Made by a program: the position numbers and the translations under genes. The notes below the pieces were generated by a model that was given only the letters and a program-made list of their open reading frames with translations, made no database searches and had not been told where the DNA came from. 64,000 nt of DNA from Bacteroidaceae bacterium (GTDB lineage: Bacteria > Bacteroidota > Bacteroidia > Bacteroidales > Bacteroidaceae), in contig JAKSLJ010000005.1 in NCBI GenBank assembly GCA_024401275.1, positions 1 to 64,000 on the forward strand, written 5' to 3'. Positions 20,675 through 39,585 of this stretch are shown piece by piece. The first letter of the stretch is position 1, and every line of letters starts with the position of its first letter.

Positions 20675-20705
20675 AAAATGAGATACAAATTGCTCCGTAT
20701 CTCAA
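20672..20705 (-). terminator. Terminator of the 63-residue gene, overlapping the next promoter
   Basis: TGAGATAC (20679-20686) pairs with GTATCTCA (20697-20704). On the - strand the stem is followed by a seven-base T-tract that overlaps the -33 box of the downstream promoter. Confidence 0.7.
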
Positions 20706-20736
20706 ATATACTACGTTTTTGACAAATTCACAAGTC

Positions 20737-20928: not shown

Positions 20929-20944
20929 TTTATTTTACAGCTTA

Positions 20945-21927: not shown

Positions 21928-21932
21928 ATAAT

Positions 21933-22712: not shown

Positions 22713-22753
22713 TTTGGTAATCCTTTTTCCTACAAATTATTTTTGAAAGCCCG

Positions 22754-23146
22754 TTAATCTTGTTTTTGTTCAGATGAAACTTCCTTTAATTGAGAAACAA
22801 ACACCTCGTGAGATATTTTTGATTGTGCCATTGAGATTAGTAAACCCATATTGAGTTTTATGAAAGACTTTACAGCAAATATATCTTCAGATGAAATCTT
22901 GAGAACCTTTTCATCATCCATTATGTAGGGATTCTCGGATATACTAATTGGAATGAATTCCGATACAGATCTACCATGTCCATTTCTTACAAATAAAAGA
23001 AGCGTATGTTCGTTTCTTTCATATGAACCACCATCATCAACGAATATATCCACATTCAACTTACTTATCTGAGGCTTTATCCACATGTATTCCATCAGTT
23101 CATCCAAATCAGAAAGCTTATATCGTTCTTTATTTTCTATATTCAT
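22754..23146 (-). CDS. 130-residue protein of unknown function
   Basis: A small soluble protein with VDIFVDDGGSYERN followed by HTLLLFVRNGHGRS, a pattern reminiscent of small Bacteroidales island proteins of about this size. No catalytic motif. It is 41 bp upstream of the 259-residue gene. The inverted repeat at 23216-23271 precedes it. Confidence 0.6.
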   Translation of the reverse strand: MNIENKERYKLSDLDELMEYMWIKPQISKLNVDIFVDDGGSYERNEHTLLLFVRNGHGRSVSEFIPISISENPYIMDDEKVLKISSEDIFAVKSFIKLNMGLLISMAQSKISHEVFVSQLKEVSSEQKQD

Positions 23147-23215
23147 AGTTTAAGAAATATTGATAGTGTTATTTAAATATTGTTACTTTTGACATTTTTT
23201 GCTATAAAGCATAAT

Positions 23216-23271
23216 TTTATTTACTGCCAATAAATAAAAAGTTGCGTTTTTGTTTATTGGCAGTAAATAAA
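23216..23271. repeat. 19-bp perfect inverted repeat
   Basis: TTTATTTACTGCCAATAAA (23216-23234) and its exact reverse complement (23253-23271) surround an 18-nt loop. It lies just after the stop of the gene at 23279 and could end that transcript. A partial copy of one arm is at 20957. Confidence 0.8.
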
Positions 23272-23278
23272 TTAGACT

Positions 23279-23701
23279 TTATCGCTCGTATTTGATATCT
23301 AGGTAATCAAGAAAAGACTCTAGTTCGTTGTAAACTTCCTCCATACTTGCCTGAGGTAGTTCTTGGAAGCATTCAAATGTCTCCCAATCGTCAAATTCCA
23401 CTTCTTCTATTGGGATTTTGATGATTCTGCGCTCCACCAAGTATGTTGTTTTAATTCTATAGCTAATGTTATTATTCCGAGCCTTGTAATTGAAAGCTTC
23501 TTCAAGCATCCAGATATATTTCTTCTCTTGCTCTGTTATGTGATATTCTATAAACAGGGTAGGTTTCTTCTTGTCACGCCGTGCTTCTATCATTAAACGT
23601 TTGAGAAGCTTCCTCTTGACTTTTCGTTTGATCATCTTATATTTCATAGAAGTAGCTAAGCACCTGCACACACAATTTCGCCTTATATTGTCGTTTTCCA
23701 C
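23279..23701 (-). CDS. 140-residue protein of unknown function
   Basis: The N-terminal 45 residues are very basic (KRKVKRKLLKR region), followed by an alpha/beta part ending in acidic helices. No recognised domain. The basic start could bind nucleic acid, which is inference. An inner ATG (MKYKMIKRKV, codon 19) is an alternative start. Confidence 0.5.
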   Translation of the reverse strand: MENDNIRRNCVCRCLATSMKYKMIKRKVKRKLLKRLMIEARRDKKKPTLFIEYHITEQEKKYIWMLEEAFNYKARNNNISYRIKTTYLVERRIIKIPIEEVEFDDWETFECFQELPQASMEEVYNELESFLDYLDIKYER

Positions 23702-23737
23702 AGTGTGGCACTCTTATTAATCTCCGTGATTAGCACA

Positions 23738-24163
23738 TTATACAAAAGCAATATCTGTTATTACAAAACGGCTTCTTCCCATGTCGGTATCTATTGTTTC
23801 GGTATGTCCGTTCTTCTTGAACTCGATGTCCGAGAAATAGTGTTCATGGAAGAACTCAACTAAATATTCTTTCTTCTCTGAAACTGCTATGATACTACTG
23901 ACAGTACGATGAACAAGGTTGTCCATACAGATACGTTCCAGAACAAAGATATTTTTTCCTGCCGCCTCCATGTTACGACGTTTCTCCATTCCAGCTCTGA
24001 TCATAGCCTTTCGGTTTATCTCTGAGGAACAATTAACCGACATCAGCTCTTCTTCGGTAAGATTTTTATTCAAATACATAGAATTGTGTTTGTCTATTAC
24101 GTGAAACAGTCTCAATATCGAGAGGGGTATTCTTTTTCCTATCGTCCTATATCTATAAATCAA
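23738..24163 (-). CDS. 141-residue protein of unknown function
   Basis: Basic N-terminus (MIYRYRTIGKRIPLSILRLF) and a beta-rich C-terminus. No recognised family. It begins 6 bp after the nuclease-like gene, so it is probably the next gene of the same transcript. Confidence 0.5.
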   Translation of the reverse strand: MIYRYRTIGKRIPLSILRLFHVIDKHNSMYLNKNLTEEELMSVNCSSEINRKAMIRAGMEKRRNMEAAGKNIFVLERICMDNLVHRTVSSIIAVSEKKEYLVEFFHEHYFSDIEFKKNGHTETIDTDMGRSRFVITDIAFV

Positions 24164-24169
24164 AGTCGT

Positions 24170-25024
24170 TCATCCTTTTCGTAACGAACTAGGAAGCCAG
24201 AATTCTTTATTATTTGCACCTGGAGGTATTAATTTTGTGTAATCTTCTTTGCTTTTTAAAATCTTTTTAATTATGGGATGTTCGGGTTGAGTTCTACCAT
24301 ACATGTTTCCTTCATAGAAATAACCAACTCCGTTATTTCTTACCGCATTGAATCGCTCTGTCATTTTATTAATAATAGAGGGTGCTGATTGTAATGTGAA
24401 ATCACCAAAAAGAGCATTACTATTCCATAAAGAACCAAAACCGTTCTCCTTCTTATCAAAGATTACCTTAATGTTTTGTTTACATCTTTGTATCCAATAT
24501 GGCCACCGAACCACTTCTATTCCAGTCTCATCCTCTATTTGTTTTGAACGAACAAATGGGTCTTCTAATTCTATATTTGAAATGAAATGACCTGGTCCAT
24601 CGAATTCTAGATACACCTTTTTACCGTCATATTCTAAAAGGAAATCTGCATGTTTATTGCCAAGGACCTTAGGTTGTTGTTCAACTTTCATTTCAGGAAA
24701 TTCTTTTCGGATTATAGCCATTAAGACATATTCGTCCCAACTAACATTGTTTATGTGGGATTTTTGGGAGAATATGTTTTTTAAGACATCAAAATGTTTA
24801 TACAATAATGTCTCATCTACATACCCTTCTTTGAGAATCTTCAGTCTATTAAGATAAAGTCGGATATTTGGAACTTCCTGTTCTTTAATCTCCAATATTT
24901 CAAGTACATCTTCTACTTTAAACAAAGATCCAATGTTTATATCACTACTTGCTAATGAAAAATAACCAGTTGCTTTTCCTAAATATGACATACTTTTATT
25001 TTTTATGTACGAGTAACTATCCAT
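24170..25024 (-). CDS. PD-(D/E)XK nuclease-like protein (DUF559/Vsr-like motif)
   Basis: 284 residues. HADFLLEYDGKKVYLEFDG spans residues 125-143 and is followed by PGH, matching the D...ExD-G..H layout of DUF559 and Vsr-type endonuclease folds (Asp127, Glu140, Asp142, His146). A later VVRWPYWIQRCKQNI resembles the strand-helix that follows this motif. The N-terminal 100 residues are helical and may recognise DNA or a partner. No methylase is nearby, so it is not an obvious restriction enzyme. It comes after the Sel1 genes with a 120-bp gap. Confidence 0.6.
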   Translation of the reverse strand: MDSYSYIKNKSMSYLGKATGYFSLASSDINIGSLFKVEDVLEILEIKEQEVPNIRLYLNRLKILKEGYVDETLLYKHFDVLKNIFSQKSHINNVSWDEYVLMAIIRKEFPEMKVEQQPKVLGNKHADFLLEYDGKKVYLEFDGPGHFISNIELEDPFVRSKQIEDETGIEVVRWPYWIQRCKQNIKVIFDKKENGFGSLWNSNALFGDFTLQSAPSIINKMTERFNAVRNNGVGYFYEGNMYGRTQPEHPIIKKILKSKEDYTKLIPPGANNKEFWLPSSLRKG

Positions 25025-25144
25025 CCTTTGCTTTAGAACTCATGCATAAGAGGTCTTGGTGAAATACATTCTCAAGCAAGTCTGTTATTTGGTGATGGGA
25101 GGCTAAGTCGGTTTGCCTTTTGTTATTATAGAACAATCAGCCCC

Positions 25145-26809
25145 CTAAAGAGTATCATCGTATTTTTCATATAGTTCATTCAATATGTCTTGCGCTTTGT
25201 CATCGTCATCATCCGTCAATTCCAACCATTCGCGTGCTTCAGCTATATCAACTTCTGTTCCTATACCATTCATATAACAAATACCTAGGCAACGCATAGC
25301 ATCAGAATTACCTTCTTCCGCAGCATCAAGGTACACATTGAATGCCTTTTCTTTATCTTGATTGGTGCCATATCCTTTCTCAAAAACTTTGACAAGTTCA
25401 TAAACTGCATTGTCTTCTCCAGATTCAATGGCTTCAATCAGTAAATCATAGGCTTTCTGAAGATTTACAGGCACACCTCTACCTTCAATATAGCAGCCCG
25501 CGAGATGGCTCAACGCAGATAGATTTCCTTTGTTTACAGCTTTCTGAAGCCACTCATACGCTTTTCTGTCATCATTCTTAAAATCTTTAAAAATGCCTAA
25601 TGCAACCATTGCATCTGTATTATCTAATTCGGCTGCTTTACGGAACCATTTTTCTGCTTTTTCTTGATTGCTCTTAGAATTGTCCATTAATAGAGAGAGT
25701 CTTGCGACCATATACATTGCATCACTACGTCCTTCTTCTGCAGCTTTCTCAAACCACATCACAGCTTTTTCTTTATCGATTAATACCTTTTGATAATAAT
25801 CACCTAATTGACACATCGCGCCAACATGTCCTAATTCAGCAGCTTTTTTAAAACATTCAGCCGCATTTTCCATGTCAGACTTCACACCTATTCCATTTTT
25901 ATAGCAACAGCCAAGATCGTACATTCCGTTTTCATCTTCTTTTTGTGCGGCTTCATTGAACCAATAAAAGGCCTTTTGAGGATCAGTGTCAATACCTTTA
26001 CCAAATAGATAGATACGCCCAATTAGATTCATTGCTCTTATATCCCCCAATGCTGCTGCCATCTTGTAATTTTCTAATGAAAACAGAATGTTCTTGTCAA
26101 CACCCCAACCATTTTCATATAGCGCACCCAATATGCGGAAACCTCTTGTGTCGTCATCTTCAGCTGCAATTGTGGCATATTCAAACGCTTTAGCATAGTC
26201 ACGTTTTTCTTCATTAATCAAATAAAGTTCGGATAAATATCCTGCTGTTTTTGCATCATGAAACTCATCGTATGCTGCTAGCCATCTCTTTTCAGCTTCA
26301 TTATCATTTTTATCAACAATATCAGCCCCCCAATAGTATTCTATACCCATCAAGTAATAGGCTAATTTGTCTCCAGCTTCTTCCGCCTCTTTGAGTAGAC
26401 TAATGCCCTGGGATTCAATTTCTTGATCAGTATCCTTACAAAGAATGTTGCCCAAAAGCATCTTTGCCTCAGCAACATTCTGTTCTACGAAAGGTGTTAG
26501 TTCCTCAATAGCCACAGCACGCTCTTCCTGTGGAATTGTGCGTGGGTAACCTTTTTTGTCGTAATACTTGGAAAATCTAGGATCTTTCTCATTAAACTTT
26601 CGTTCAGATACCGACTGAGAATTTCCTACAACACCAGTTTGTTCTGTTAGTTTTGTTCCACATTCAGGACAAAACTTTCCGGATTTAGCCTTGTATCCAC
26701 ATGAAGGACACACCAATTCTGGCTGAATCTCTTGCAGTTTTCCTCCGCATTCAGGACAGAACTTACCTGAATCATATTGCTTTCCGCAATCAGGACATAT
26801 TAATTTCAT
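25145..26809 (-). CDS. Double zinc-ribbon Sel1-repeat protein
   Basis: 554 residues. Two CxxC...CxxC zinc ribbons occupy residues 5-21 and 34-50. After a linker come about ten Sel1-like (TPR-type) repeats with the A-x-x-G-x-x-x-A-M-x-x-L-G pattern, for example AAELGHVGAMCQLGDYYQK. Sel1 proteins are usually assembly scaffolds or adaptors. There is no signal peptide, so it acts in the cytoplasm. Its first 120 residues are almost identical to those of the next gene upstream, indicating a tandem duplication. Confidence 0.88.
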   Translation of the reverse strand: MKLICPDCGKQYDSGKFCPECGGKLQEIQPELVCPSCGYKAKSGKFCPECGTKLTEQTGVVGNSQSVSERKFNEKDPRFSKYYDKKGYPRTIPQEERAVAIEELTPFVEQNVAEAKMLLGNILCKDTDQEIESQGISLLKEAEEAGDKLAYYLMGIEYYWGADIVDKNDNEAEKRWLAAYDEFHDAKTAGYLSELYLINEEKRDYAKAFEYATIAAEDDDTRGFRILGALYENGWGVDKNILFSLENYKMAAALGDIRAMNLIGRIYLFGKGIDTDPQKAFYWFNEAAQKEDENGMYDLGCCYKNGIGVKSDMENAAECFKKAAELGHVGAMCQLGDYYQKVLIDKEKAVMWFEKAAEEGRSDAMYMVARLSLLMDNSKSNQEKAEKWFRKAAELDNTDAMVALGIFKDFKNDDRKAYEWLQKAVNKGNLSALSHLAGCYIEGRGVPVNLQKAYDLLIEAIESGEDNAVYELVKVFEKGYGTNQDKEKAFNVYLDAAEEGNSDAMRCLGICYMNGIGTEVDIAEAREWLELTDDDDDKAQDILNELYEKYDDTL

Positions 26810-26860
26810 AATCTAATATTTCAATTTAAATCGTGAGACTTAGAGTAAATCTGTCATCGG

Positions 26861-28972
26861 CTATTTCAAATAAAAGAAATACTCATTAGAACGGAATACA
26901 TGAGTTTTACATGAAATATGGTATGGTTGCTTAATTTGAAGAAGTTTTGTGTTCTTACGTCCTTCTTTGTGCCATACCACCATGTACAAACACTCATCAA
27001 GATCAGTTTGATAATTCAGGATTGCCTTGTAAGGGATGAAGAAACCATAGTTGTCCCAAATCGCAGACATGAAGGTTGGGGAAAATGATTCATTATATAT
27101 TAGTTCTATACATTTTCCTGGCTTGTTCAAGCAATGTTTATCCCCATGCTCATCAACGCAATATGCAGAAAACTCCATTTTTTCGTCTAATAAACCTTTA
27201 ATGAGAAGATTGCCCGTAACTTGGAAACCTAATTGTCCATTAAAAGTAACATTTGGCTCGATATGAATCTCTTTAAATTCTACAGATGGTGTCAAAAGAT
27301 CTTCTAAAGGCTTAATCTGATCATCGTTTGCTCCATATTCTTTTGCAAGCTTCAAATACTTTTTTGCGAGTTTAAGATTAGCCTTCATTGTTTTCCCTTT
27401 ATAATCAGTGCCAGTATAGACTTCCACTAAACGGCAGCATGCAAAAGGAAAGCCTGCTTCCGCTGCTTTTGTTAACCATTCTGTACCTAATTGCATATTT
27501 CGTTTAATGCCAGTACCTTCCAATAAGCGCAAACCGAGATTTGTCATGGCTCGCACATTACCTTCATTAGCATATTTCTTGTAAACAGCTACGGCTTCTT
27601 TGTACTTTCCGTTATTTAAATCTTCGTTAGCCTTATCTATTTCTTCATCAATATTACCACTTTGCATATCCTGGAGTTCCTTTTCTGCATTAGGACATCC
27701 CAGTTCTATCGCTTGTAGCATCAAGTCCATGGCTTTTTTCTTATTAGCCTTTATGCCTTCACCATTCCAAAGACACCAAGCATAGTTACGATATGCCCAA
27801 GGTTCGTCTTGCTCCATGGCTTTTTTATACCATTTTATTGCTTCTTTATATTCACCTAACGCATGACAAAGCACAGCCAATTTGTTCTGACCTTCAGAGT
27901 AGCCCATCTCAGCAGCTTTTAAATACCAAGTCTTAGCTTTTTCATTATCAACCAAAACATCTTGATAATAGGCACCTAATTCATACATAGCGTCAACATA
28001 TCCAGCCTCAGCTGCTTTTTTATACCATTCTGCAGCCTTCTCCATATCCCTTTCCACGCCAATGCCATTTGCATAACAATAGCCAAGGTTATTCATGCCT
28101 ACATCAGAACCTTTCTGGGCAGCTTCATTGAACCAAAAGAAAGCCTGTTTAGGATCTGCTTCAAAGTTCTCGCTTCCCATATAGATGAAGCCAATCTGAC
28201 TCATTGCTACTTCTTCGCCAAAAGCTGCAGCAATCTTATAATTCTCTAATGCCAATTCGATATTTTCCTCAACACCCCAACCATTCAGATACAATGTTCC
28301 TAAAACATTGTAACCCGTTTTGTCATCATCTTCCGCTGCAAATGTAGCATACTCAAACGCTTTAGCATAGTCGCATTTCTCAGCACTAAATGTATATAGT
28401 TCTGCTAATAATCCAGCAGTTTCTGCATCTTTGTACTCATCATAAGCTTCAAGCATTCTCTTTTCAGCTTCACTATGGTCTTGTTCAATTGTATCAAAAC
28501 CATAGAAATAGCAGATTCCCATCAAATAATATGCTAATTTATTACCATCTTCTTCCGCTTCTTTTATCAAGCGCATTCCCTGAAGCTCTTGATTATTGCA
28601 CATAATATTGCCTAAAAGCATCTTTGCTTCCGCAACATCCTGTTCCACGAAAGGAGTTAGTTCTTCTACAGCTACAGCATACTCTTCTAGAGGAATAGTA
28701 CGTGGGAAACCTTTTTTGTCATAGTACTTGGCAAATTCAGGAGCTTTCTCGTTAAACTTACTTTCTGCAGAAGGCTGCAGAGTTTCTCCTGATACAGCTA
28801 CTTGTTCTGTTAGTTTTGTTCCACATTCAGGACAAAACTTTCCGGTCTTAGCCTTGTATCCGCATGAAGGACATACCAATTCTGGTACAATCTCTTGCAG
28901 TTTTCCTCCACATTCAGGACAGAACTTTCCTGAATCATATTGTTTTCCGCAATCAGGACATATTAATTTCAT
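26861..28972 (-). CDS. Double zinc-ribbon Sel1-repeat protein with extra C-terminal domain
   Basis: 703 residues. Zinc ribbons at Cys5/8/18/21 and Cys34/37/47/50, then about ten Sel1 repeats, an interrupting helix around residue 440, two more repeats and a C-terminal beta-rich domain from about residue 570 (VEFKEIHIEPNVTFNGQLGF onwards) absent from its paralogue. That domain may bind a ligand or partner; I do not recognise it. It starts 11 bp after the upstream gene. Confidence 0.88.
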   Translation of the reverse strand: MKLICPDCGKQYDSGKFCPECGGKLQEIVPELVCPSCGYKAKTGKFCPECGTKLTEQVAVSGETLQPSAESKFNEKAPEFAKYYDKKGFPRTIPLEEYAVAVEELTPFVEQDVAEAKMLLGNIMCNNQELQGMRLIKEAEEDGNKLAYYLMGICYFYGFDTIEQDHSEAEKRMLEAYDEYKDAETAGLLAELYTFSAEKCDYAKAFEYATFAAEDDDKTGYNVLGTLYLNGWGVEENIELALENYKIAAAFGEEVAMSQIGFIYMGSENFEADPKQAFFWFNEAAQKGSDVGMNNLGYCYANGIGVERDMEKAAEWYKKAAEAGYVDAMYELGAYYQDVLVDNEKAKTWYLKAAEMGYSEGQNKLAVLCHALGEYKEAIKWYKKAMEQDEPWAYRNYAWCLWNGEGIKANKKKAMDLMLQAIELGCPNAEKELQDMQSGNIDEEIDKANEDLNNGKYKEAVAVYKKYANEGNVRAMTNLGLRLLEGTGIKRNMQLGTEWLTKAAEAGFPFACCRLVEVYTGTDYKGKTMKANLKLAKKYLKLAKEYGANDDQIKPLEDLLTPSVEFKEIHIEPNVTFNGQLGFQVTGNLLIKGLLDEKMEFSAYCVDEHGDKHCLNKPGKCIELIYNESFSPTFMSAIWDNYGFFIPYKAILNYQTDLDECLYMVVWHKEGRKNTKLLQIKQPYHISCKTHVFRSNEYFFYLK

Positions 28973-28983
28973 AGTTCGTTAGT

Positions 28984-30615
28984 TTATTCTGATTTCAATT
29001 TAGACAATTTAGTTTTCCAGACATCAGCCAACATTTCATTACCTTTTTGAGCGTACAAGTCAATCATCATTTGTATGAATATTGGATTCTTTTTGTAATC
29101 CTCGTCTATCTTGATGCGGCGTTCTGCTTCATCAAGATCTTGTTTTACCACCTTTCCGTACAAGTAAAAATAAGCCATGTATGCACCCGCTTCATACACT
29201 CCGTGCTCTGACGCTGATTTTATGGTATTGTAGGCTAACCTTTGATTAGCTGCAGATAGCTTCTCTTGTAGGTATAACTGACCAAGTGCGAACTGCGCTT
29301 CGTAATTATCCTTAGGTGCAGACAGAAGCATTTGCTTTAATTCTGATATTTCCGAAGCACTCAACTTTTTCAGATAACCGAATTTATTCTTATGCTTCGA
29401 TAATATATTCTCATCAAATATGCAAGATGTATTCTGTTGAGGATGCGGTTCTTCATACTTTGACTGTGGTTTATCATCAGCTTTGGTATTTGCTTTTTCC
29501 TCATTTTGAAGTTCCGTATCCTTCTCTGTATTGAGTTGAGGCTCTTCTTTGATTGATCTGCCTTCATCAGGATGATTGACCTCAACTTCTTTTGAAGAAT
29601 GCTTTCTTTCTGACATTTTATCAATAACACCATAGAAAAGATTGTCCATATAGAATGCACCATCTTTTTGCATCTGTTTCAATTGTTCAGAAGACAGCAT
29701 GTCGCTATAAAACAACGTATAGAGACACGATGCCAAACTTGAAAGATACAAAGAATGATCTCCATTGATATTATCGAAAAGAGATTTTGCGGTTTCGATA
29801 TCATGGTCAATAATCGCATTAACTGTTGCGAGGATAAAGACATTCTCTTGTGGGATAGTATCAAACCATTTGTCACCAATATCAGAAACCAAGAGTTCAG
29901 ATTGCATAATATTACCCATACGTCGATAAGCTATTGATGACCAGAAGGTTTGCCAATACTTATCTTCGGGTTGCTTCTCGTACTCTTCAATACATTTTTG
30001 AGGATGAAGAATAGCTTGTAGCATATAATATGTAAACTGGATTTCCTCTACAGAGTACCGCTGAACCATCGCCTTCATTTGTGCCATCAATCGATTCACT
30101 AAATCAAGACGGTTGTTGTTAATAGCCGTTTTGATATTGTTAAATGTAATCTGGTGGACAGGCGATAAAGATGAGGATTTACGCTCTGATCGTTTTGAGA
30201 CCTCTGATAGAATTCTTGAAGCGGAACTTCCGTCTAATCCCAAACGATATTGCATATCATCCAGTTTGCGCTTGTTCTCGGAAGTCAAGATGCCAGTACT
30301 ATATGCTTCTAAACAAGCTTCGCGAAAAGCAAGTTCCTTTTCATGTTTCAGTTCCTCTGGTGTCTTTCCCCTTTCAACTTGGGTTATGTTATTGGTGATA
30401 ACATTATGCGAATCAACATTACTCGTTGTATTTATTGAGTGATTGTCAGACAGATTGACTCCACCTGATATGGCATTTGCATCACCAAGATTCAGATTAA
30501 AACCACCATTAGATGGTTGTTGAGCGATTTCCTGCTCAACCAATGGGACACCACAATCCAAGCAGAATTTTCCTGCTTCATACGTTTTGTGGCATTGTGG
30601 GCATATTTTGGGCAT
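28984..30615 (-). CDS. Zinc-ribbon protein with Sel1-like C-terminus
   Basis: 543 residues from the ATG at 30615 (MPKICPQCHKTYEAGKFC); another ATG three codons upstream is possible. One zinc ribbon uses Cys5, 8, 18 and 21. Then come an Asn/Ser-rich linker, a charged helix, a helical-repeat domain, a Glu/Lys/Gln-rich disordered stretch near residues 330-390 and about three Sel1-like repeats at the end. Probably a cytoplasmic scaffold of the same system as its neighbours. Confidence 0.8.
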   Translation of the reverse strand: MPKICPQCHKTYEAGKFCLDCGVPLVEQEIAQQPSNGGFNLNLGDANAISGGVNLSDNHSINTTSNVDSHNVITNNITQVERGKTPEELKHEKELAFREACLEAYSTGILTSENKRKLDDMQYRLGLDGSSASRILSEVSKRSERKSSSLSPVHQITFNNIKTAINNNRLDLVNRLMAQMKAMVQRYSVEEIQFTYYMLQAILHPQKCIEEYEKQPEDKYWQTFWSSIAYRRMGNIMQSELLVSDIGDKWFDTIPQENVFILATVNAIIDHDIETAKSLFDNINGDHSLYLSSLASCLYTLFYSDMLSSEQLKQMQKDGAFYMDNLFYGVIDKMSERKHSSKEVEVNHPDEGRSIKEEPQLNTEKDTELQNEEKANTKADDKPQSKYEEPHPQQNTSCIFDENILSKHKNKFGYLKKLSASEISELKQMLLSAPKDNYEAQFALGQLYLQEKLSAANQRLAYNTIKSASEHGVYEAGAYMAYFYLYGKVVKQDLDEAERRIKIDEDYKKNPIFIQMMIDLYAQKGNEMLADVWKTKLSKLKSE

Positions 30616-30626
30616 ATAATACAATA

Positions 30627-30830
30627 TTACATTGAACGATGTACTTCTTCTATAATCTGCTCTATTGATAGCAGATATGTATTACCGACATTTCCTTCTA
30701 TATCACAGAACTGCCAACCAATACCCGTGTAAATAACTCGAACTTCTCCGTGTTCAAAATACGTTACATTGCCCCTTTTTACAAGGTGGAAACCAATGTC
30801 TGATAATGTGTCTGGTGTTATAGGCGTCAT
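30627..30830 (-). CDS. 67-residue protein between zinc-ribbon genes
   Basis: Short alpha/beta protein (ITPDTLSDIGFHLVKRGNVT at its start). No family recognised. It has 2-bp spacing to the protease gene upstream and 11 bp to the next gene, so it is embedded in the operon and may be an accessory or inhibitor; this is inference from position only. Confidence 0.6.
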   Translation of the reverse strand: MTPITPDTLSDIGFHLVKRGNVTYFEHGEVRVIYTGIGWQFCDIEGNVGNTYLLSIEQIIEEVHRSM

Positions 30831-30832
30831 AT

Positions 30833-32872
30833 TTATCTTGATTCGAATAGTTCTTTAATTTCCCCGTTTTTATCCGTTTGAACAACATAGAACTCTGGAT
30901 AGAGATTATTCTTCTTTACATAGGTCAGGTTATATGACTGCTGACCATTGTATTCAAGAGATTCTATGCGAGCTAAGTTGCCTTCGGATAATTCAAGAGT
31001 ACCATATAGTTGCTTGCGGATATATTCATCCATCTGTTTGAGATTACGATCTACCAACTGGCGAGCACGATTCAAAACACCATCAATGCCTTTTTCAAAT
31101 CGGTCAAATTCCGTCTTGCATTTCACATCAGGAAGTTCTTTTGATGACACGTTTATAGCTTTTATCGAGGTCCTCAACTGATGAGTAGCGTTCGGTGCAT
31201 AACATGTTAGAGTTGGACAACCAAACAAGTTGAATTGGTTCAAGGTCAAGAAAACCAAACTCTTGTTCTCGTATCTTGCTCTGTAGTTAAGGTAATCTAT
31301 CTTTGCACGCAGAAAAGCTTTTCCTGCAGATTCTCCCTGGAAGAGGTAACAAGCATAAAGTTTAAGCATAGCTTCTGCATAACCGGCAGGCATGAGCAGA
31401 TCTATAGCTGAATCAGAGCCGCTAAGATGGTCTTCAATAGTTCCATTTCCGATAACATTACTGCACATGCTGCTTGTACACGAACCAGTAAAGAGAAGTG
31501 TTTTACTACGATATAATGCTGTTAGAAGCATAGAATCGTCACGGTCGTACACCTGATTATCCGGCATGTTACCATCATTATTATCAAAGAAGTACTTTCC
31601 ATAACGAGCACCATAGCAAGGGAAGGCATTTATTATTGGTATATTCAATTGCTTCATCAGCTCTGTAGTCATACCCCAATAAGCTTGGAAACCTTCTGAA
31701 CCAAGATAACCAGACGCAGCCATGTTGGGTGAGCCATGGAGATTGATGAAGAGCATATCCGTATCTTTCAACTGCTCTTTGTAGTAAGTTACATTTTCGT
31801 TGCTAATATATTCTTCACCTTCCACGTCCAAAGAAGGGCAAAGGAACATGTTGTCACGAGTGAGAATGCCGTCATTTTCAAGTTGCTTTTGAGGCAACTT
31901 CGCCATAACGTCAGCAGATGTCCATGTCCAATCGTTATTGCCATTTTTTCCTGCATTGCAAGTCATCATTGCAGATTGAAGGGCAATGCCATCATTCTCC
32001 ATTACTTGCAAAGCACGCTCAAGGTAACCACCAATATCATCTACTACAGTACTATCAATATATCCGCGTTCTACATAGTCTAAAGGTAGTCTGGACACAT
32101 TGAAGATAGCATCTTTGATAGATACCCTTCTCCATTGGAAATCTACAGGAAAACAATATAGCCAATCAGAATCTTCTATAGTCTTAACATCATGACCTAT
32201 ACTGGCAGGGTATTCTGGCATCGGAATAACATCGCCACCTCCAATAATAAATAAAGGTGTATCAGCGGATTTCTCAATGCCCATGCCATCTGCAAAGTCT
32301 GACAAGAATTGAGCATACTCTTGCCATGTGGCATTCTTACTAATACTTCCACGCATGTCTTCCTCACCGAAATCTATAAGATTCCAGTGAAGACCGTCAT
32401 ACTCCTCTGCTGATAGCATGAAGTTTACAAGAATATCCCGCACATCTTCTGCACTTGTTCCTTTGTATTTGCGAGCGATGATTTCCGTATTAGTAAAGAT
32501 AATACCCTGCGAAGAAACACTTGATCGCGTTCCTGCATTGTAAACCTGTTCTCCTACATGGGAGTAATGAACTTCTTTATTATATGAAGGCTCTGGTGCG
32601 GATTGCTCTCCTCTAAGTCTTGACAAATATTCGTCAAGTTTGGATGATGGTTTATGTCCTCCAAAACTAGATCGAATACCATGAACAAGCTCCAGGTATC
32701 CAGTCATACATTGACTGCACTTAAAGCCTCCATTTCCATAAGGACCGCTATGTATGCCATGGCAGCTCATACAAATACGATAGCCGCATTCATCGCAGAC
32801 ATACCAAGACCACGACTCACCTACATACTGCTGTCCACAACATTGACAGGGTATAAATGTTCCTTTATCCAT
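30833..32872 (-). CDS. Intracellular clan-CD (C25/gingipain-like) cysteine protease with zinc-finger head
   Basis: 679 residues and no signal peptide. The head has four CxxC pairs (Cys9/12, 26/29, 34/37, 52/55), a RING- or double-ribbon-like zinc module. The body shows the C25/caspase-fold order: TPLFIIGGGDVIPMP near 205-219, SRLPLD near 260, the His of LFINLHGSPN (His379), the Cys of IINAFPCYGARYG (Cys419), then GESAGKAFLRAK and LNLFGCPTL-like NQFNLFGCPTL at the end, the usual closing motif of C25 and CHAT proteases. Known gingipains are secreted; this one appears cytoplasmic. The substrate may be a neighbour protein. Confidence 0.65.
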   Translation of the reverse strand: MDKGTFIPCQCCGQQYVGESWSWYVCDECGYRICMSCHGIHSGPYGNGGFKCSQCMTGYLELVHGIRSSFGGHKPSSKLDEYLSRLRGEQSAPEPSYNKEVHYSHVGEQVYNAGTRSSVSSQGIIFTNTEIIARKYKGTSAEDVRDILVNFMLSAEEYDGLHWNLIDFGEEDMRGSISKNATWQEYAQFLSDFADGMGIEKSADTPLFIIGGGDVIPMPEYPASIGHDVKTIEDSDWLYCFPVDFQWRRVSIKDAIFNVSRLPLDYVERGYIDSTVVDDIGGYLERALQVMENDGIALQSAMMTCNAGKNGNNDWTWTSADVMAKLPQKQLENDGILTRDNMFLCPSLDVEGEEYISNENVTYYKEQLKDTDMLFINLHGSPNMAASGYLGSEGFQAYWGMTTELMKQLNIPIINAFPCYGARYGKYFFDNNDGNMPDNQVYDRDDSMLLTALYRSKTLLFTGSCTSSMCSNVIGNGTIEDHLSGSDSAIDLLMPAGYAEAMLKLYACYLFQGESAGKAFLRAKIDYLNYRARYENKSLVFLTLNQFNLFGCPTLTCYAPNATHQLRTSIKAINVSSKELPDVKCKTEFDRFEKGIDGVLNRARQLVDRNLKQMDEYIRKQLYGTLELSEGNLARIESLEYNGQQSYNLTYVKKNNLYPEFYVVQTDKNGEIKELFESR

Positions 32873-32884
32873 TATTGCCTATTC

Positions 32885-35779
32885 TTATTCTTCGTATCCG
32901 CAATCTGTGCACATACCTAACTCTGACAAATATTTTTTGCCGCACTGAGGACATGCAACACCATACTTCTGCAAGCAGAACGAGAAGAACTCTTCCTGTT
33001 CATACACCTTGCCATTGATGCCATTAGCATCAATCTCGGTGTCAGGACGTACTACTCCTTGCATAATATAGTTCTCTATTTCTTGACGAGAATATGACTG
33101 TCCAAAGTCTGGCAGGTAATATTTCTTTTCCTCTGTCTTAGGGGTTGGAACTGCATTGGTTGACTGAGTAACCTTTGTTGTATAATTCAAGGCTGCGTCT
33201 TGGGTATGATCAACACGAGCTTGCTCATGCTGCATCTGCTTGCGATATTCATCTTTCATGGCATTAACTTCTGCTTGCCGACCTGCAGCGATGTTCTGCA
33301 TAGCATCAAGTTGTGCCTGCTGTGTTGCCTGTTGACCTGCGGCCATGTTTGCTGCCATCTGTGCATTGGTTTGCATTCCTGATTGAGCGAACTGCATCAT
33401 TTGTTGCATCATGGCTTGCATTTGTGCCATCTGAGCAGCATTCTGTGCAGAGGCTTCACCGGCATGTTGTTGCTGCATTTGCATCATGCGCTCGTACATC
33501 TCTTTTTGTTGGCCAGAAGCATTCTTGTTACCAAAGGACTCTGCAAATGCTTTCTGCGCCTCTGCTGACATTCCTGCCATACCAGCAGCCATGAGTTGAT
33601 CTGCTGTCATATTCTGCTTAGCGGCAATGTTGGCCATTTCTTCTTGATGTTTCTTTTCTGCAAGTTCAGTTTCATGACGCTGCATAGCCTCCATATTCTG
33701 ACGAGCAATTTCTGCTTTTTGGCGCAGAATGTCCATTTCGGTTTGAGCCTTCTGCTTGTCTATGTCAACAGCATTCTGTGCACGCTGTTTCTCAAAGTCA
33801 ATAATATCCTGAGCCTCTTGTTTATTTTGATTATAAGCATCTTGCTTCTGTCGTTGTTCGAAAGCATAGTCTGTATCACGACGACTATCAAAGTATTCAT
33901 CACGACGTTTTGCCTCTGATAACTCGGAATCAAGCATTTGACTGCTATGAGAAGCGTCCTTTAATTCTTGTTCACGACGATGTTCTTCTGCGATGTCATC
34001 AAGAGAGAAACCTTGCAATGTCTTCTTGCGTAAAGCTTCGAAATGAGCATCTTCTAGTTCTGCGTCTGCCAATATCTTGCTCTTGGCAAGCTGAGTTTCA
34101 AGTTGAAGACGAGTGTTATCTGTGCGATTAGCCGAAGCCAATTGGAATGCTTCAGACACTTGGTCGCGGTCAAACTTCTTGTTACGGATGCTACTTTCCA
34201 ATGCGTCAAAATCGTCCTCGGAAACGAGACGGTTACCCTTTAGTTCAAGAAGAGCGGCCAACTCCTCGTTCTCTGTACGTGCTTCACGAATACGCTTCTG
34301 ACTTTGGAGTAATTGAACAAACGCTTCCATTTCGTCCTCATGGACAAGTTGGTCATTGTTGATGCTGTCCAATTCCTTACGAAGGTCAAGTTCTGTGCGT
34401 GCTTCACGGAGTTTTTGTGCATTCTCCTCGCTTTGAAGACGATTCTTGAATTCGTTTGTTCGAGTCAAATAATCAATCTCTTTCTCAGTACAATAAAATT
34501 TTTCTTCTATTGCACGGAATCGATCAAATGCTTCATTTTCAGTGGTGATATCTAGAACCTGCGACACCTCAATGCCGTGCAGCAACTGACGACTCTGAAG
34601 AACAATCTCATAGCTAATTGCTGACATAAGTTCCGCAGGAATAAGTTGACCGTCAGCTTCGTAGTTCTGCATCTGTCGTTGGATAGCAGTACGCATCCAT
34701 GTGTTCAATGCGATACGAACGTCATTCACAGAATATGACATTTGATCCATAAGGTATGTAGTTCTGAACTCGCGGAAATCAGAAATACGTACCTCCAAAG
34801 CCACTGCCACGTCAACGGTCAATGTCTTAGTCCTAATTTTGTATGGAGCAAATTCCATCTGTGAGAGTCCATCTTCTGCTACGACAGGACGGATTCCCAT
34901 TGTGAGTTGCAAAGCACCATCGCGTTTCAACACTACAGAAACAACTGAATTTCCTGATAGTTTTTGCGCAATGCTTTTTACTCTTTCACGCTTCTTCCTT
35001 GCCTCTTCTTTATTGTATTTGTCGCGATTACCTGTAATCAAAGCCCATAAGCTACGTCCTGCACGTCCAATCTTTTTCACGAAGCTATCCTTAGAACGCT
35101 CATCTTCTTCTTTTTCAGCAGCTTCGCGCTGGATCTTTTCAGTTGTAAACTTATAAAGACCACCTTGTAATTCAGCAACTTGCTCGCCATCAACGAAGAT
35201 AATAGCAGTTACGCCTTCTTGTACATATACGCCATCAACTTTTTCCAACTCTTGGAATGCCTGAGCTGAAATGTTTCGTGCAATCTGTCCAGGAGCAATA
35301 GACCAAGAAATATAATTATGCTCTTTGTTACGGGAGCCTACTGCTACCACGTCTGACTCTGCCACTTTTGGTGTGTGTGCAGCCGTAGCTGCTGCAGTCT
35401 GTGCACCCTCAGCAGCTGCATTGTGCTGCTGAACAGGAGTAGATTCTTTCTGTGAAGCATTGGAAGATTTTGGCGCAGAATATGGACTGTAATTATTGAG
35501 CGCGGAAAGGTCTCGACCTTCACCAACCCATTTGTCCCACAATCGTTTACTGTCATTAGGATGTTTCTGACAGAACTTTGCAAATCCTGCTGGATCTGAT
35601 ACTGCTTTTTTGTAAGACATCATCAGCATACCAAGAATCTTTGTGTTTGGTTGCTCTATTGGTACTGTTACTTGTGACTTAGCTTCCTCATTTTCCTGCT
35701 TGTTAAGAGGAACTTTACATTTAGGACAAAATTTGTACATCGGGAGAATTTTGTCATAACCGCAAGAAGGACATTTCAT
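32885..35779 (-). CDS. SPFH/Band 7-domain protein with zinc ribbons at both ends
   Basis: 964 residues. A zinc ribbon at Cys3/6/18/21 is followed by a disordered linker, a split SPFH-type domain (about 140-420, including VKSIAQKLSGNSVVSVVLKR and LTVDVAVALEVRISDF), then about 300 residues of charged coiled coil (Glu/Arg/Lys/Gln), a Met/Gln/Ala-rich segment (about 700-850) and a final zinc ribbon CPQCGKKYLSELGMCTDC. The layout resembles the YdjI-type SPFH plus zinc-ribbon proteins found in stress operons. SPFH proteins form large rings on membranes, so this could be the scaffold of the system. Confidence 0.75.
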   Translation of the reverse strand: MKCPSCGYDKILPMYKFCPKCKVPLNKQENEEAKSQVTVPIEQPNTKILGMLMMSYKKAVSDPAGFAKFCQKHPNDSKRLWDKWVGEGRDLSALNNYSPYSAPKSSNASQKESTPVQQHNAAAEGAQTAAATAAHTPKVAESDVVAVGSRNKEHNYISWSIAPGQIARNISAQAFQELEKVDGVYVQEGVTAIIFVDGEQVAELQGGLYKFTTEKIQREAAEKEEDERSKDSFVKKIGRAGRSLWALITGNRDKYNKEEARKKRERVKSIAQKLSGNSVVSVVLKRDGALQLTMGIRPVVAEDGLSQMEFAPYKIRTKTLTVDVAVALEVRISDFREFRTTYLMDQMSYSVNDVRIALNTWMRTAIQRQMQNYEADGQLIPAELMSAISYEIVLQSRQLLHGIEVSQVLDITTENEAFDRFRAIEEKFYCTEKEIDYLTRTNEFKNRLQSEENAQKLREARTELDLRKELDSINNDQLVHEDEMEAFVQLLQSQKRIREARTENEELAALLELKGNRLVSEDDFDALESSIRNKKFDRDQVSEAFQLASANRTDNTRLQLETQLAKSKILADAELEDAHFEALRKKTLQGFSLDDIAEEHRREQELKDASHSSQMLDSELSEAKRRDEYFDSRRDTDYAFEQRQKQDAYNQNKQEAQDIIDFEKQRAQNAVDIDKQKAQTEMDILRQKAEIARQNMEAMQRHETELAEKKHQEEMANIAAKQNMTADQLMAAGMAGMSAEAQKAFAESFGNKNASGQQKEMYERMMQMQQQHAGEASAQNAAQMAQMQAMMQQMMQFAQSGMQTNAQMAANMAAGQQATQQAQLDAMQNIAAGRQAEVNAMKDEYRKQMQHEQARVDHTQDAALNYTTKVTQSTNAVPTPKTEEKKYYLPDFGQSYSRQEIENYIMQGVVRPDTEIDANGINGKVYEQEEFFSFCLQKYGVACPQCGKKYLSELGMCTDCGYEE

Positions 35780-35826
35780 TGGTATTTTTTTGTTTTGTAT
35801 GTTTTCTAATTGGTAATAATTAAAGG

Positions 35827-36111
35827 CTAGCTATTTGTGGATACAGAATAATTCATAAGGGCTATGCATGCTTCTTTAAGGTTTTCCATATCCTCATTAT
35901 TTCCTAAAGTTATTTCTGATTCTATGATATAACAACGATAAGTTGCTTCTCCATTTAACTTTATCCAAATACAGCTTTCTTTGAACATCTGCCCAAAGTC
36001 TGCATGACCCCAGATTGCCTGACCGTTTTCATCATCAATAATATATTTCTTTTCATATGTAGAACTAGAAAATTCGGCATCTGTCATATTATAATACTGG
36101 CGTATGTTCAT
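35827..36111 (-). CDS. 94-residue protein at the head of the zinc-ribbon operon
   Basis: A small acidic protein starting MNIRQYYNMTDAEFSSS, with no recognised domain. It is the first gene after the structured RNA and starts about 10 bp from its 3' portion, so the RNA may act as its leader. 47 bp separate it from the SPFH gene. Confidence 0.6.
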   Translation of the reverse strand: MNIRQYYNMTDAEFSSSTYEKKYIIDDENGQAIWGHADFGQMFKESCIWIKLNGEATYRCYIIESEITLGNNEDMENLKEACIALMNYSVSTNS

Positions 36112-36120
36112 GATGTTTAG

Positions 36121-36496
36121 GTTGTCTGCAGAAGCCTTATCAGACCTTTATGTCATGGTACTTATCCTACAAAAACGCGAAACGTAGGCTTCCACCTCTA
36201 CTCGTCCGTCGTTTGAGGTCCTAGGAAAACCCGTATAGTTAGACTTGTAGAGTGTCTGCCTACGCCGATATACAACAATACCGTAAAGTGTGCGTGAGGA
36301 TATTGCTACCCTCTGCACACACCTACGGATAGAATAAAGCATACCCGTAGCAGTCACTTCTGACATTGTCCATTGAACTATACTTTAGAATTTCCTAGGT
36401 TCCAAACGTCCAACAAGACAAAGCATCGATGACGCTTTTTGTTATGTAGTGTCCCTCCCAGCCGCACACCATTTCAGATGGCACGGCGTAGGTAAG
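36121..36496 (-). ncRNA. Candidate structured RNA with pseudoknot, class unknown
   Basis: Stems read on the - strand: A, 36408-36391 with 36229-36210 (CGTTTG and CCTAGGAAA both paired); B, 36383-36376 with 36240-36233 (GTATAGTT/AACTATAC, 8 of 8); C, 36320-36310 with 36299-36288 (GTGTGC/GCACAC plus GAGG/CCTC); D, 36350-36345 with 36328-36323 (CTACGG/CCGTAG); E, 36188-36184 with 36170-36166 (CCTAC/GTAGG). In addition 36492-36485 (CCTACGCC) pairs perfectly with 36266-36259 (GGCGTAGG) and crosses A and B, forming a pseudoknot. It has its own full promoter. It lacks the conserved signatures of RNase P, tmRNA and SRP RNA. The 3' end is not defined. Confidence 0.6.
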
Positions 36497-36502
36497 ACGC
36501 TG

Positions 36503-36534
36503 CAAAAGTAAGCAATTATTTTCTATCTCGCAAA
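36503..36534 (-). promoter_or_regulatory. Promoter of the structured RNA and probably the zinc-ribbon operon
   Basis: The complement has TTTG (36534-36531), exactly 20 bp, then TACTTTTG (36510-36503). The predicted start is near 36496, just before the first pairing segment of the RNA. Confidence 0.85.
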
Positions 36535-36583
36535 TAAATCAAGAAAAAAATAAAAACAAACAAAATGTTTGCGAGCACGGCAA

Positions 36584-36612
36584 TAAAAAAGCGGCAGAAT
36601 TCTGCCGCTTTT
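36584..36612 (-). terminator. Terminator of the M16 peptidase gene
   Basis: GCGGCAGAATTCTGCCGC (36591-36608) is a perfect palindrome. On the - strand it is followed by six Ts. It separates the core genes from the island. Confidence 0.85.
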
Positions 36613-36669
36613 CTAATGCTTTACACAAAGGGGATTTGTATATATTAACCCAAGTAAGTCCATTTGGGA

Positions 36670-39585
36670 TTAATAGTTGAACACTTCCTCTAGAGTAACT
36701 CGCTTCATAGGACCGATCTTCTCAAGTTCCTTCATGTTGAGTTCCTTCTCGTCGCCAAGGATGAGGTAACGATAAGGCTTGTTCGAGATGTGAGTGTTTG
36801 CGAAGTTCACGATGTCCTGAAGGGTAAGCTTCTGCGCGTGCTTGTAAACAATCTCACGAAGAGACTTGTCAAGTCCGAGACGCTCGGCTGAGAGCTGAGA
36901 TGTGAGCAAACCAGCCTTTATAGTGCGCTCTGTAGCAAGGTTCTTTAGAAGAGTCTGCTTTGCAACATCGAAAGCTTCCTGCTGCTGAGGAATTGTGTCG
37001 AGAATCTGCTTGAAGGTGTTCACGCAGTCGAGCATCTTATCGTTCTGAGTGATGATGCTTGTAACGAAGAATTCCTTCTCGTCCTTGTAGTTTGGCGTAT
37101 TGTAATAAGCATTTGCGCTATATGCAAGACCGCGAGTCTCACGAAGTTCCTGGAAGACGATTGCGTTCATGCTACCACCATAGTAAGTGTTAAAGAGATC
37201 GATAGTGGCAAGTTCCTCTGGATTGAGCATGCGATCCTCACAGTTGTACATACGCATATAGATGTTCTTTGCGTCATAAGGTGCGATGATGATTTCGTTC
37301 TGAGGAGTAGCTTCGCGCTGAACATGGGCAGGTTCAGAGGCAGATGCTGACTGGCGGCTCGGAAATCCTCGCCCTACATTGTGGTTCTTATTGATGGCAG
37401 CTACCACATCCTTCAGCTCCATAGGACCATAGTAAAGCACCTTATGGCTACGGGTGTTGAGGAGATTTGCTGTTGCGAGAATGGTCTCTGGCTTTGTCTC
37501 ACGAAGTGTCTTTACGGAAACCTGGCGATAGTAAGGTGACTTCTTGCCGTAATAGCCGTATGAAGAAAGCGCACGGAAGCAGCTTTCCTGGTTCTTCTTC
37601 GCGTCAAGACGGTTCTTCTCAACGAGGTCGATGAACGATTTATATTGGTCGTAGTCGGCAACGGCATTTGTGATGATATGCTCATAGAGCTTCATTGCCT
37701 CCACCATGTTCTCGCTGAGACCAGAGAGAGACACGCGCACTTCACGGTCACTTGCGCTTATGGTATAGCCACAAGCCATGGCGTAGAACATCTTCTGAAT
37801 CTCGTCGGCAGAATATTTCTTTGTGCCTACAAGTTCCAAATAATCGGAGAGATAGTCAATGAAAGGTTCTGTCTCTGTGCCGAAGTTGTAGCAGTAAACG
37901 AGTGTAAAGAGTCCGTTCACATTGTTCTTGACATAGCGAACAGGAAGGCCCTTCTTTGTTGTTGCCTTTGCGATTTCCTTGTCGTAGTCAGGGAATATAG
38001 GCGCAATCTCTGGGCTCTGTTCGTTGATGATGTCGCTCACGAACTGACTCTGATACTCACGGTTGGCTGGTATAGGCGTGATGGCAGGCTTTTCTATCTT
38101 CTTGAGGGTTGTATCTTCGCCCTGCTCCTTGTAAATTACGACATAGTTGTCCTTGAAGAAGCGGTTGGCAAAGTTCACGATGTCAGCCTTGGAAATCTTT
38201 GAGATGCGATCGAGCTGCTGCACTTCGTCTGCCCAATCCGTGCCATTGATGAAGTCGTCAGTCATAGTGCTGACACGACTCTCGTTGCTTTCAAGTGCAG
38301 CATATTCTCTTCGCTTCATATTGTTGACTATAGCCTTAAGCATGCTTTCGTCAAATTCACCTTTCTTGAGTTTCTCTATCTCGGCAAGGAGAATGTCCTT
38401 CACTTCCTTGTTTGTCTGGCCTTCCTTTGGCATACCCTGAAGAAGGAATCCAGAATATTCCTCAAGATCCTGAACGCCAGCGCCAGCGTAAGCACACTTC
38501 ATAGGTTGGTTGACATTAAGGTCAATAAGACCAGCCTTGCCGTTTGAGAGGAGTCTGTCAATAACAGCGAGCGTGTCAAGCTGATGGCTCTTGCCACCTT
38601 CAGCCTGCCAAGCGATATACATGAATGCTGCCTCCTGACCGAGAACGACAGTATCTGTTGGTTCGGTAATCTTCTTTACAGCTGGATATGTAGGGCGAGT
38701 GAGATTCTCGTTCTTCTTCCAAGAGCCGAAATACTTGTCAATGAGCGCGATAGTCTTGTCTGGGTCGAAATCACCAGCAAGGACAATTGCCACATTGTTT
38801 GGACAGTAGTAATTGTTGTAGTAGTTCTCAATGTTTACGATAGAAGGATTCTTCAGGTGCTGCTGAGTACCGATTGTGGTCTGAGTTCCGTATGGATGAC
38901 CAGGGAAGAGCTTAGCGGTAAGCGCAGGCCACATCTTGCGACTATCCTTAGCAATGCCCATGTTGTACTCTTCGTAAACGGCTTCAAGCTCCGTATGGAA
39001 GCCACGGATGACGAGGTTCTGGAAGCGGTCGGATTCTACCTTCAGCCATTTCTCAAGTTCATTTGACGGAATCTCGTTCACATAGACCGTCTGGTCGTTG
39101 CTTGTGTAGGCGTTTGTTGCGTCAGCACCGAGAGAAGCACATAGCTTGTCATACTCGTTAGGGATGTTGTACTGAGCAGCAAGCTGCGAGAGAGAGTCTA
39201 TCTCGTGGTAGCATTGCTTACGTTCTGCTTCGTCTGTCAAAGTGCGATAGACTTCATACTTTGCGCGAATCTGGTCGAGGAAAGGCTTTTCCTTCTCATA
39301 GTCGCGAGTGCCATACTGCTTTGTACCCTTGAACATGATGTGCTCAAGATAGTGTGCAAGACCTGTTGTCTCGGCAGGGTCGTTGCGAGAGCCGGTGTGT
39401 ACGGTGATGTTTGTGAAGATACGAGGCTTATCCTTATTCACAGAGAGATAAACCTTCAAGCCGTTGTCGAGGGTGTAGATGCGAGCCTGCATCGGATCGC
39501 CCGGAACGCTGGCGTACTTGTAGTCCTTGGCAGAGACGGAGAGTGTAGCCAGAAGGACTAAAACGAAAGAAAGGAACTTTTTCAT
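36670..39585 (-). CDS. M16-family zinc metallopeptidase (two-domain, pitrilysin type)
   Basis: 971 residues with a signal peptide (LLATLSVSAKD). The inverted zinc motif HxxEH is HYLEH (His78, Glu81, His82) and the distal Glu lies in the ELEAVYEEYNMG segment. Two M16 halves follow, giving the usual ~930-residue clamshell. Periplasmic members degrade peptides or process proteins. Around residues 735-755 the peptide NVGRGFPSRQSASASEP is encoded by a REP and is absent from the normal fold, but the frame continues to the end, so the enzyme is probably intact. Confidence 0.92.
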   Translation of the reverse strand: MKKFLSFVLVLLATLSVSAKDYKYASVPGDPMQARIYTLDNGLKVYLSVNKDKPRIFTNITVHTGSRNDPAETTGLAHYLEHIMFKGTKQYGTRDYEKEKPFLDQIRAKYEVYRTLTDEAERKQCYHEIDSLSQLAAQYNIPNEYDKLCASLGADATNAYTSNDQTVYVNEIPSNELEKWLKVESDRFQNLVIRGFHTELEAVYEEYNMGIAKDSRKMWPALTAKLFPGHPYGTQTTIGTQQHLKNPSIVNIENYYNNYYCPNNVAIVLAGDFDPDKTIALIDKYFGSWKKNENLTRPTYPAVKKITEPTDTVVLGQEAAFMYIAWQAEGGKSHQLDTLAVIDRLLSNGKAGLIDLNVNQPMKCAYAGAGVQDLEEYSGFLLQGMPKEGQTNKEVKDILLAEIEKLKKGEFDESMLKAIVNNMKRREYAALESNESRVSTMTDDFINGTDWADEVQQLDRISKISKADIVNFANRFFKDNYVVIYKEQGEDTTLKKIEKPAITPIPANREYQSQFVSDIINEQSPEIAPIFPDYDKEIAKATTKKGLPVRYVKNNVNGLFTLVYCYNFGTETEPFIDYLSDYLELVGTKKYSADEIQKMFYAMACGYTISASDREVRVSLSGLSENMVEAMKLYEHIITNAVADYDQYKSFIDLVEKNRLDAKKNQESCFRALSSYGYYGKKSPYYRQVSVKTLRETKPETILATANLLNTRSHKVLYYGPMELKDVVAAINKNHNVGRGFPSRQSASASEPAHVQREATPQNEIIIAPYDAKNIYMRMYNCEDRMLNPEELATIDLFNTYYGGSMNAIVFQELRETRGLAYSANAYYNTPNYKDEKEFFVTSIITQNDKMLDCVNTFKQILDTIPQQQEAFDVAKQTLLKNLATERTIKAGLLTSQLSAERLGLDKSLREIVYKHAQKLTLQDIVNFANTHISNKPYRYLILGDEKELNMKELEKIGPMKRVTLEEVFNY
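37355..37378 (-). repeat. REP copy translated in frame inside the M16 peptidase
   Basis: An intact single REP in the same orientation as the gene. It encodes the VGRGFPSR part of the protein. No partner copy is adjacent. Confidence 0.9.

Follow-up and report, generated by a model that had tools for sequence, protein, structure and literature searches.

Introduction

The window analysed here is a stretch of 64,000 nucleotides (nt) from a Bacteroidaceae bacterium (GenBank assembly GCA_024401275.1, contig JAKSLJ010000005.1, positions 1 to 64,000), which carries an operon of seven genes at 25145-36111 on the minus strand, separated by gaps of 47, 12, 2, 2, 11 and 51 nt. Two of these genes encode an SPFH-type protein and a peptidase resembling family C25; among relatives the two are encoded together and diverge together, and in one relative a zinc-ribbon/Sel1 adaptor is fused to the peptidase. 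Together they very probably form a protease-scaffold unit, and the gene system is real, recurring and, as far as the literature was searched, apparently undescribed. An initial annotation, made from the sequence without database searches, had described seven consecutive, closely spaced genes whose five large products all carry CxxC pairs at the N-terminus, and both statements agree with the open reading frames (ORFs), with gaps of 2-51 nt. Here we present the features of the operon and its relatives, together with a proposed function. The genes and protein features are as follows.

35827-36111, minus strand: 94-amino-acid (aa) protein, first gene of the operon
32885-35779, minus strand: 964-aa SPFH scaffold with N-terminal zinc ribbon, SPFH domain, long Pro/Gly-poor and presumably helical stretch, and C-terminal ribbon
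34490-35311, minus strand: cryptic SPFH core, about residues 157-430 of the 964-aa protein
32894-32959, minus strand: C-terminal zinc ribbon of the SPFH protein, residues 941-962 (sub-threshold Pfam match)
30833-32872, minus strand: 679-aa C25-like cysteine peptidase with Cys-rich zinc finger at the N-terminus
31736-31738, minus strand: predicted catalytic His379 (NLHGS) of the peptidase
31616-31618, minus strand: predicted catalytic Cys419 (PCYGAR) of the peptidase
30627-30830, minus strand: 67-aa protein in a variable slot between protease and s546
28984-30624, minus strand: 546-aa adaptor (s546) with zinc ribbon, Asn/Ser/His-rich stretch and weak C-terminal Sel1 region; the listed start is TTG, with an in-frame ATG three codons in
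26861-28972, minus strand: 703-aa protein (s703) with double zinc ribbon, Sel1 array and C-terminal extra region
25145-26809, minus strand: 554-aa protein (s554) with double zinc ribbon and Sel1 array, tandem paralogue of s703

Recurrence and co-divergence

Relatives were counted over 25 full-length protease loci (the window, L011, L012, L038, L039-L047 and L091-L102); L002, L013 and L038, which belong to the same contig, were counted once, whereas the near-identical L041 and L043 were both counted, as were the members of the pairs L093/L094 and L038/L045, each from one genome. Recurrence of the gene pair, the check set beforehand, was found: an SPFH gene lies on the strand of the protease at 22 of the 25 loci, and in 19 of these 22 it is at most 350 nt away, the two genes being separated by 2.0-5.3 kb and other genes in L094, L099 and L101. 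At the three remaining loci the contig runs out (42 nt past the protease in L043, 277 nt before it in L093 and 679 nt before it in L039, where the 7.1 kb read on the other side of the protease contained no SPFH gene), so the absence of SPFH from them cannot be taken as real. Identity matrices of protease and SPFH protein were strongly correlated (Mantel r = 0.893, not reached by any of 2000 permutations; 21 of the 22 pairs, L046 excluded), a value inflated by close relatives. Two CxxC pairs near the N-terminus were present in 23 of the 25 proteases (the exceptions being L102, cut by the contig start, and the fusion protein of L100) and in all 22 SPFH proteins. The role initially suggested for the zinc ribbons, that of a common docking tag, is hypothetical.

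The system was found in 16 of 399 genomes of the family and 4 of 200 genomes of the genus, the window's own genome being within both samples. The order sample (295 genomes) yielded three full-length relatives, own genome included, and the phylum sample (395 genomes) the own genome and one partial C25-like protein (L048), which was dropped as a relative because it has no zinc ribbon. Matches through the zinc ribbon only were excluded as well (8 of the 11 matching genomes of the order sample, two extra matches in the own genome, and L007).

The peptidase

The window protease itself gave no match to the Pfam family Peptidase_C25. Its relatives, which are 25-31% identical to it and were found with it at E-values of 1e-19 to 2.5e-44, include proteins that did: 3 of 10 family members examined, the window protein excluded, matched at E-values up to 0.01 (best 1.1e-12), and the L042 protease matched at 7e-08. 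In a profile-profile comparison with 12 canonical C25 domains (those, out of 24 fetched loci, in which the GHG motif allowed the domain to be cut out), the whole protease family reached a probability of 94.2% over 331 columns (score 65.6), with the His-Gly, Cys and last motifs in register. By clade, the probability was 85.8% for type B alone, 6.4% for types A and C combined and 0.8% for type A alone, these types being the locus architectures described below. Because the family and type B match C25 and type A, to which the window belongs, does not match on its own, the window protein is linked to C25 transitively, via its relatives. His379 and Cys419 align with the His-Gly motif and the Cys of C25, respectively, and H379, G380 and C419 are invariant at all 25 loci. 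The clan-CD protease with a His/Cys dyad of the initial annotation is thus upheld at the level of the family profile.

No CHAT or caspase domain was among the 18 Pfam families listed for 10 members. Known C25 members are usually secreted and carry a signal sequence. The window protease, with a peak hydropathy of 1.16 over 19 residues and a zinc finger at the N-terminus, has no signal segment, and is apparently an intracellular C25-like (clan CD) cysteine peptidase with predicted activity. Alternatively, the domain might serve as a scaffold without catalytic function, in an operon that builds a storage or structural assembly. This would fit the distance of type A alone from C25, too great for a profile match; yet the His-Gly and Cys positions are invariant at all 25 loci and across the three groups, as catalytic constraint predicts, which makes this explanation highly improbable.

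The SPFH protein

The aligned SPFH core was compared with 17 YdjI-type proteins and reached an hhalign probability of 84.6% (score 49.9) over the second half of the domain, compared with a best score of 19.8 among 40 column shuffles and a probability of 0.2% for a reversed decoy. The first half aligned in the expected place in a comparison with one YdjI protein, at a probability of 1.4% that is not significant alone. No SPFH/Band_7 family was found among 25 of the 28 Pfam families listed for 11 members. An SPFH protein with ribbons at both ends, as first annotated, is therefore supported by profile for the SPFH domain and by a sub-threshold Pfam match for the C-terminal ribbon; the latter is missing in L011-L013 and present in 17 of the 18 SPFH proteins of types B and C (not in L046). 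The peak hydropathy of the window protein (0.94) indicates that there is no N-terminal membrane anchor; two of twelve SPFH subfamilies are reported to be soluble (PMC2636767).

In two type-C loci (L094:10260-11573 and L100:8532-9674) the protease has a further SPFH-like protein nearby, which is short and carries a GYF_2 domain at its C-terminus. The L094 protein matched GYF_2 at 5.5e-18 and Band_7_1 at 0.014 (below cut-off), and its L100 counterpart was judged by eye.

Locus architectures

Three architectures were distinguished. Type A (the window, L011, L012 and L038, where the contig ends inside s546) has the order SPFH - protease - slot - s546 - Sel1 and forms one clade (100/100). Type B (14 loci) has the order protease - SPFH, usually followed by a small protein and an adaptor with zinc ribbon, hydrophobic segment and Sel1 repeats. 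Type C (L092-L094 and L099-L101, the L093 contig carrying the protease end only) combines SPFH, s546-like and protease genes in varying order. Types A and C jointly form one side of a branch (100/100), as does type C when labelled rows only are counted, the unlabelled L039 falling inside it; the underlying tree carries a long-branch warning (L044, L045 and L047) and is rooted by midpoint only.

The types also differ in their relation to the cell envelope. A hydrophobic segment, defined as a mean Kyte-Doolittle value of at least 2.2 over 19 residues (a hydropathy measure, not a trained predictor), was present in all 13 readable type-B adaptors. Two of the five counterparts in type C also have one; among the operon proteins of type A that were measured, the highest value was 1.44 and no segment qualified. 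In type B the segment is presumably transmembrane. The fullest type-B loci (L042 and L095-L098) carry a lytic transglycosylase gene before the module and LpoB-like, DUF6175 and LPP20 genes after it; in L042 these were recognized by Pfam (SLT, Mltc_N, DUF6175, LPP20 and a sub-threshold LpoB), and the same order was found by profile in L095-L098. Because of the hydrophobic segment and these cell-wall and outer-membrane genes, type B probably watches or remodels the envelope.

These observations suggest an envelope-stress or proteostasis explanation for the whole system, modelled on HflKC with FtsH and stomatin with NfeD, according to which SPFH protein and peptidase carry out a regulated removal of damaged proteins or keep cell-wall enzymes in check, the slot gene is incidental and type A represents a soluble form. 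The pairing of SPFH proteins with proteases is an old theme (PMC2636767), and in B. subtilis a stress complex has been described in which YdjI ties PspA to the membrane (PMC8581546). However, the envelope genes of type B were not found by profile in type-A and type-C loci, the type-A operon proteins lack the hydrophobic segment, the locus is rare (16 of 399 family genomes), and the swapped slot and defence-type neighbours described below are atypical of a housekeeping function. On balance we consider this explanation for the window's operon rather unlikely, if a serious competitor.

Adaptors and the variable slot

Three zinc-ribbon Sel1 proteins had been annotated, of which s703 and s554 match Sel1 repeats strongly (2.8e-51 and 2.2e-59), whereas the match of s546 is sub-threshold (0.11). 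The tandem paralogy of s703 and s554 is also visible at the DNA level, in four blocks of 72-90% identity. In L100 (5540-8482) an s546-like part and the protease form a single ORF of 980 aa (s546 profile 2e-22, protease profile 5e-119). A second hint of fusion is given by the C-terminal extension of the L045 protease (845-3289), which resembles a separate gene of L044 (4557-5360; 1.3e-15) that sits two genes past the SPFH gene of that locus.

The gene between protease and s546 varies among type-A loci. Its products, of 67 aa (window), 170 aa (L011), 73 aa (L012) and 293 aa (L013), show no mutual similarity at E < 0.05 (phmmer --max), despite identities of 54-68% in protease and SPFH protein between the window and the other type-A loci. 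In type B, one conserved family occupies the corresponding place (L040, L041, L042 and L047, with six more loci by profile). Swapping a gene for unrelated ones is frequent in bacterial immune systems.

The slot protein might also be a toxin that the protease holds or cuts, much as in a toxin-antitoxin system, with the SPFH and Sel1 parts as trigger. RES proteins are NAD-degrading toxins, and the 293-aa slot protein of L013 shows a marginal RES match (0.024, below cut-off). On the other hand, the occupants in the window and L012 are small and without a credible family match, that of L011 matches the EMC7 beta-sandwich alone (9e-07), a match of doubtful meaning, and PADLOC gave no match for the L013 protein. 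This possibility is accordingly regarded as improbable.

Defence-type neighbours

In L012 (type A, from Prevotella pectinovora) a UG26 reverse transcriptase gene (16820-18064; PADLOC 6.6e-167) begins 158 nt past the Sel1 gene. In two type-C loci a helicase-nuclease of Hhe/PDC-S37 type follows the protease, immediately in L093 and two genes downstream in L094; the latter also encodes a PDDEXK_4 nuclease.

Proposed function

For the window's type A, our first choice over envelope stress is a scaffolded intracellular protease with a role in conflict or defence, a reading held tentatively, at slightly less than even confidence. The SPFH protein would form an oligomeric ring or cage, on which the s546 adaptor would hold the peptidase; the Sel1 arrays of s703 and s554 would sense a trigger or select substrates; and the product of the swapped slot gene would be a cargo, effector, inhibitor or substrate of the peptidase. 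Because type A has no hydrophobic segment, no envelope genes and a swapped slot, the module may have been redeployed there in conflict, most likely phage defence, or in an acute stress response, in which the freed peptidase or slot protein would stop growth. A more specific version, in which a cytoplasmic, membrane-free, vault-like SPFH cage derived from type-B envelope surveillance sequesters a gingipain-fold peptidase until infection frees the peptidase or the slot cargo, is speculative and, as a whole, unlikely.

Several observations weigh against parts of this interpretation. Regarding the components, the C25 link passes through type B, with type A alone at just 0.8% and types A and C combined at a score of 30.3 that is close to the best of 30 column shuffles of these types (26.6); a first SPFH comparison reached just 30.2%, the faulty YdjI alignment behind it including ORFs not of YdjI type (three or more, judged by eye) and later giving way to the set of 17 proteins; and the correlation of protease and SPFH divergence is raised by close relatives. 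Regarding the defence role, the swapped slot rests on four loci, the only type-A loci known; the neighbours were picked by eye in a subset of loci without a baseline, and are suggestive rather than a statistic; L093 and L094 are from one genome, so that their Hhe link is hardly independent; and a kinase and an AAA protein of L099 match several PADLOC models, but models of broad families. The operon proteins gave no credible match in PADLOC 2.0.0 (best 0.0099, 12.9 bits, of the 94-aa protein to SduA), nor did the seven downstream genes of the surrounding island that were scanned, and no relatives were found among the plasmids, phages and viral contigs searched.

If the protease-scaffold unit is correct, SPFH proteins, whose partners and purpose have long been debated, would gain a hard-wired cysteine-protease partner, and for comparison the system offers three architectures, one naturally occurring fusion and a contrast between membrane and soluble forms. 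If type A is defensive, an intracellular gingipain-fold protease would join Bacteroidales immunity.

Genomic setting

Two further features surround the operon.

18600-36400, strand not assigned: AT-rich island, containing the operon and further genes without assignment
36503-36534, minus strand: Bacteroidetes-type promoter match (TTTG-N17-23-TAnnTTTG), about 390 nt upstream of the first gene

The island has a G+C content of 38.2%, compared with 47.4% and 46.8% in its flanks. Counting both strands, the window contains 13 matches to the promoter motif, compared with 2.0 expected. The one at 36503-36534 is alone in lying between the M16 gene upstream and the operon, and is a candidate operon promoter, judged by the motif. 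Matches in sigma-70 and terminator scans were no more numerous than in shuffles, and positions 18500-37500 gave no Rfam match at the gathering threshold. Seven M16-gene loci of the same genus, compared in search of an empty site, showed near-zero synteny with the window, with one gene beyond M16 shared in 1 of the 7.

Among the operon proteins, matches above Pfam cut-offs were limited to zinc-ribbon and Sel1/TPR families, and sequence searches of the PDB gave weak matches only, mostly to zinc-binding proteins. The 94-aa protein had no phmmer match in the relatives' loci scanned, and its membership of the system is uncertain. A 284-aa gene (24170-25024) starts 120 nt past the last operon gene and may be co-transcribed with it; by eye its product resembles a Vsr/DUF559-like nuclease, and nothing credible was found for it in Pfam, NCBIfam, PADLOC or a comparison with the Hhe tail.

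Within the same island, seven minus-strand ORFs at 19880-25024 (35.7% G+C), one of them the 284-aa gene, gave no credible family match. Repeats, direct as well as inverted, lie at the island edge (18680-20010), measuring 142 nt (87%) and 51 nt (92%), with inverted arms of 45 nt (80%). Together with a match resembling a promoter at 18972, they may mark a mobile or invertible element.

Comparison with known systems

No description of an SPFH-C25 pair was found in the literature searched, which left most subscription papers and bioRxiv outside. Peptidase family C25 (gingipain/PorU-type, clan CD) shares with the window protease a collinear domain, the His-Gly and Cys motifs and a C-terminal motif (FxLxGxPxL versus FTLLGDPSM). 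The window protease differs in its N-terminal zinc finger, its SPFH partner and the lack of a hydrophobic signal segment; canonical members in 20 relatives are mostly encoded by ORFs of 1100-1300 aa.

The comparison with YdjI-type stress operons made in the initial annotation holds for the SPFH domain, which is related to the YdjI family, and a zinc ribbon occurs in the partner YdjG as well (PMC9239133). It fails for the operon as a whole: zinc ribbons here lie within the SPFH protein and a protease is added, and membership in a YdjI/PspA phage-shock operon was rejected because no PspA or YdjG/H-type partner and no Band_7_1 was recognized. Counting against membership too, a distinct YdjI-type gene stands elsewhere in the own genome, on contig C26, as its sole match to PF13421 at E-values up to 0.001. 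The region L051:5937-12632 holds this gene (PF13421 7.9e-51) and, beside it, a gene for a 310-aa protein that is RES-like by eye and has no Pfam match, as well as genes for several proteins bearing zinc ribbons, of which some contain a hydrophobic stretch.

Caspase/CHAT-TPR conflict systems (eLife 52696; PMC7159879) likewise combine clan-CD peptidases, repeat proteins and variable parts; they differ in that no NTPase or CHAT domain was recognized in the operon, and SPFH occurs once in PMC7159879, in a reference title. In HflKC-FtsH and stomatin-NfeD an SPFH protein works with, or is encoded beside, a protease as here (PMC2636767), whereas the present operon has no FtsH or NfeD match, lacks a membrane segment in type A and pairs its SPFH protein with a C25-like cysteine peptidase.

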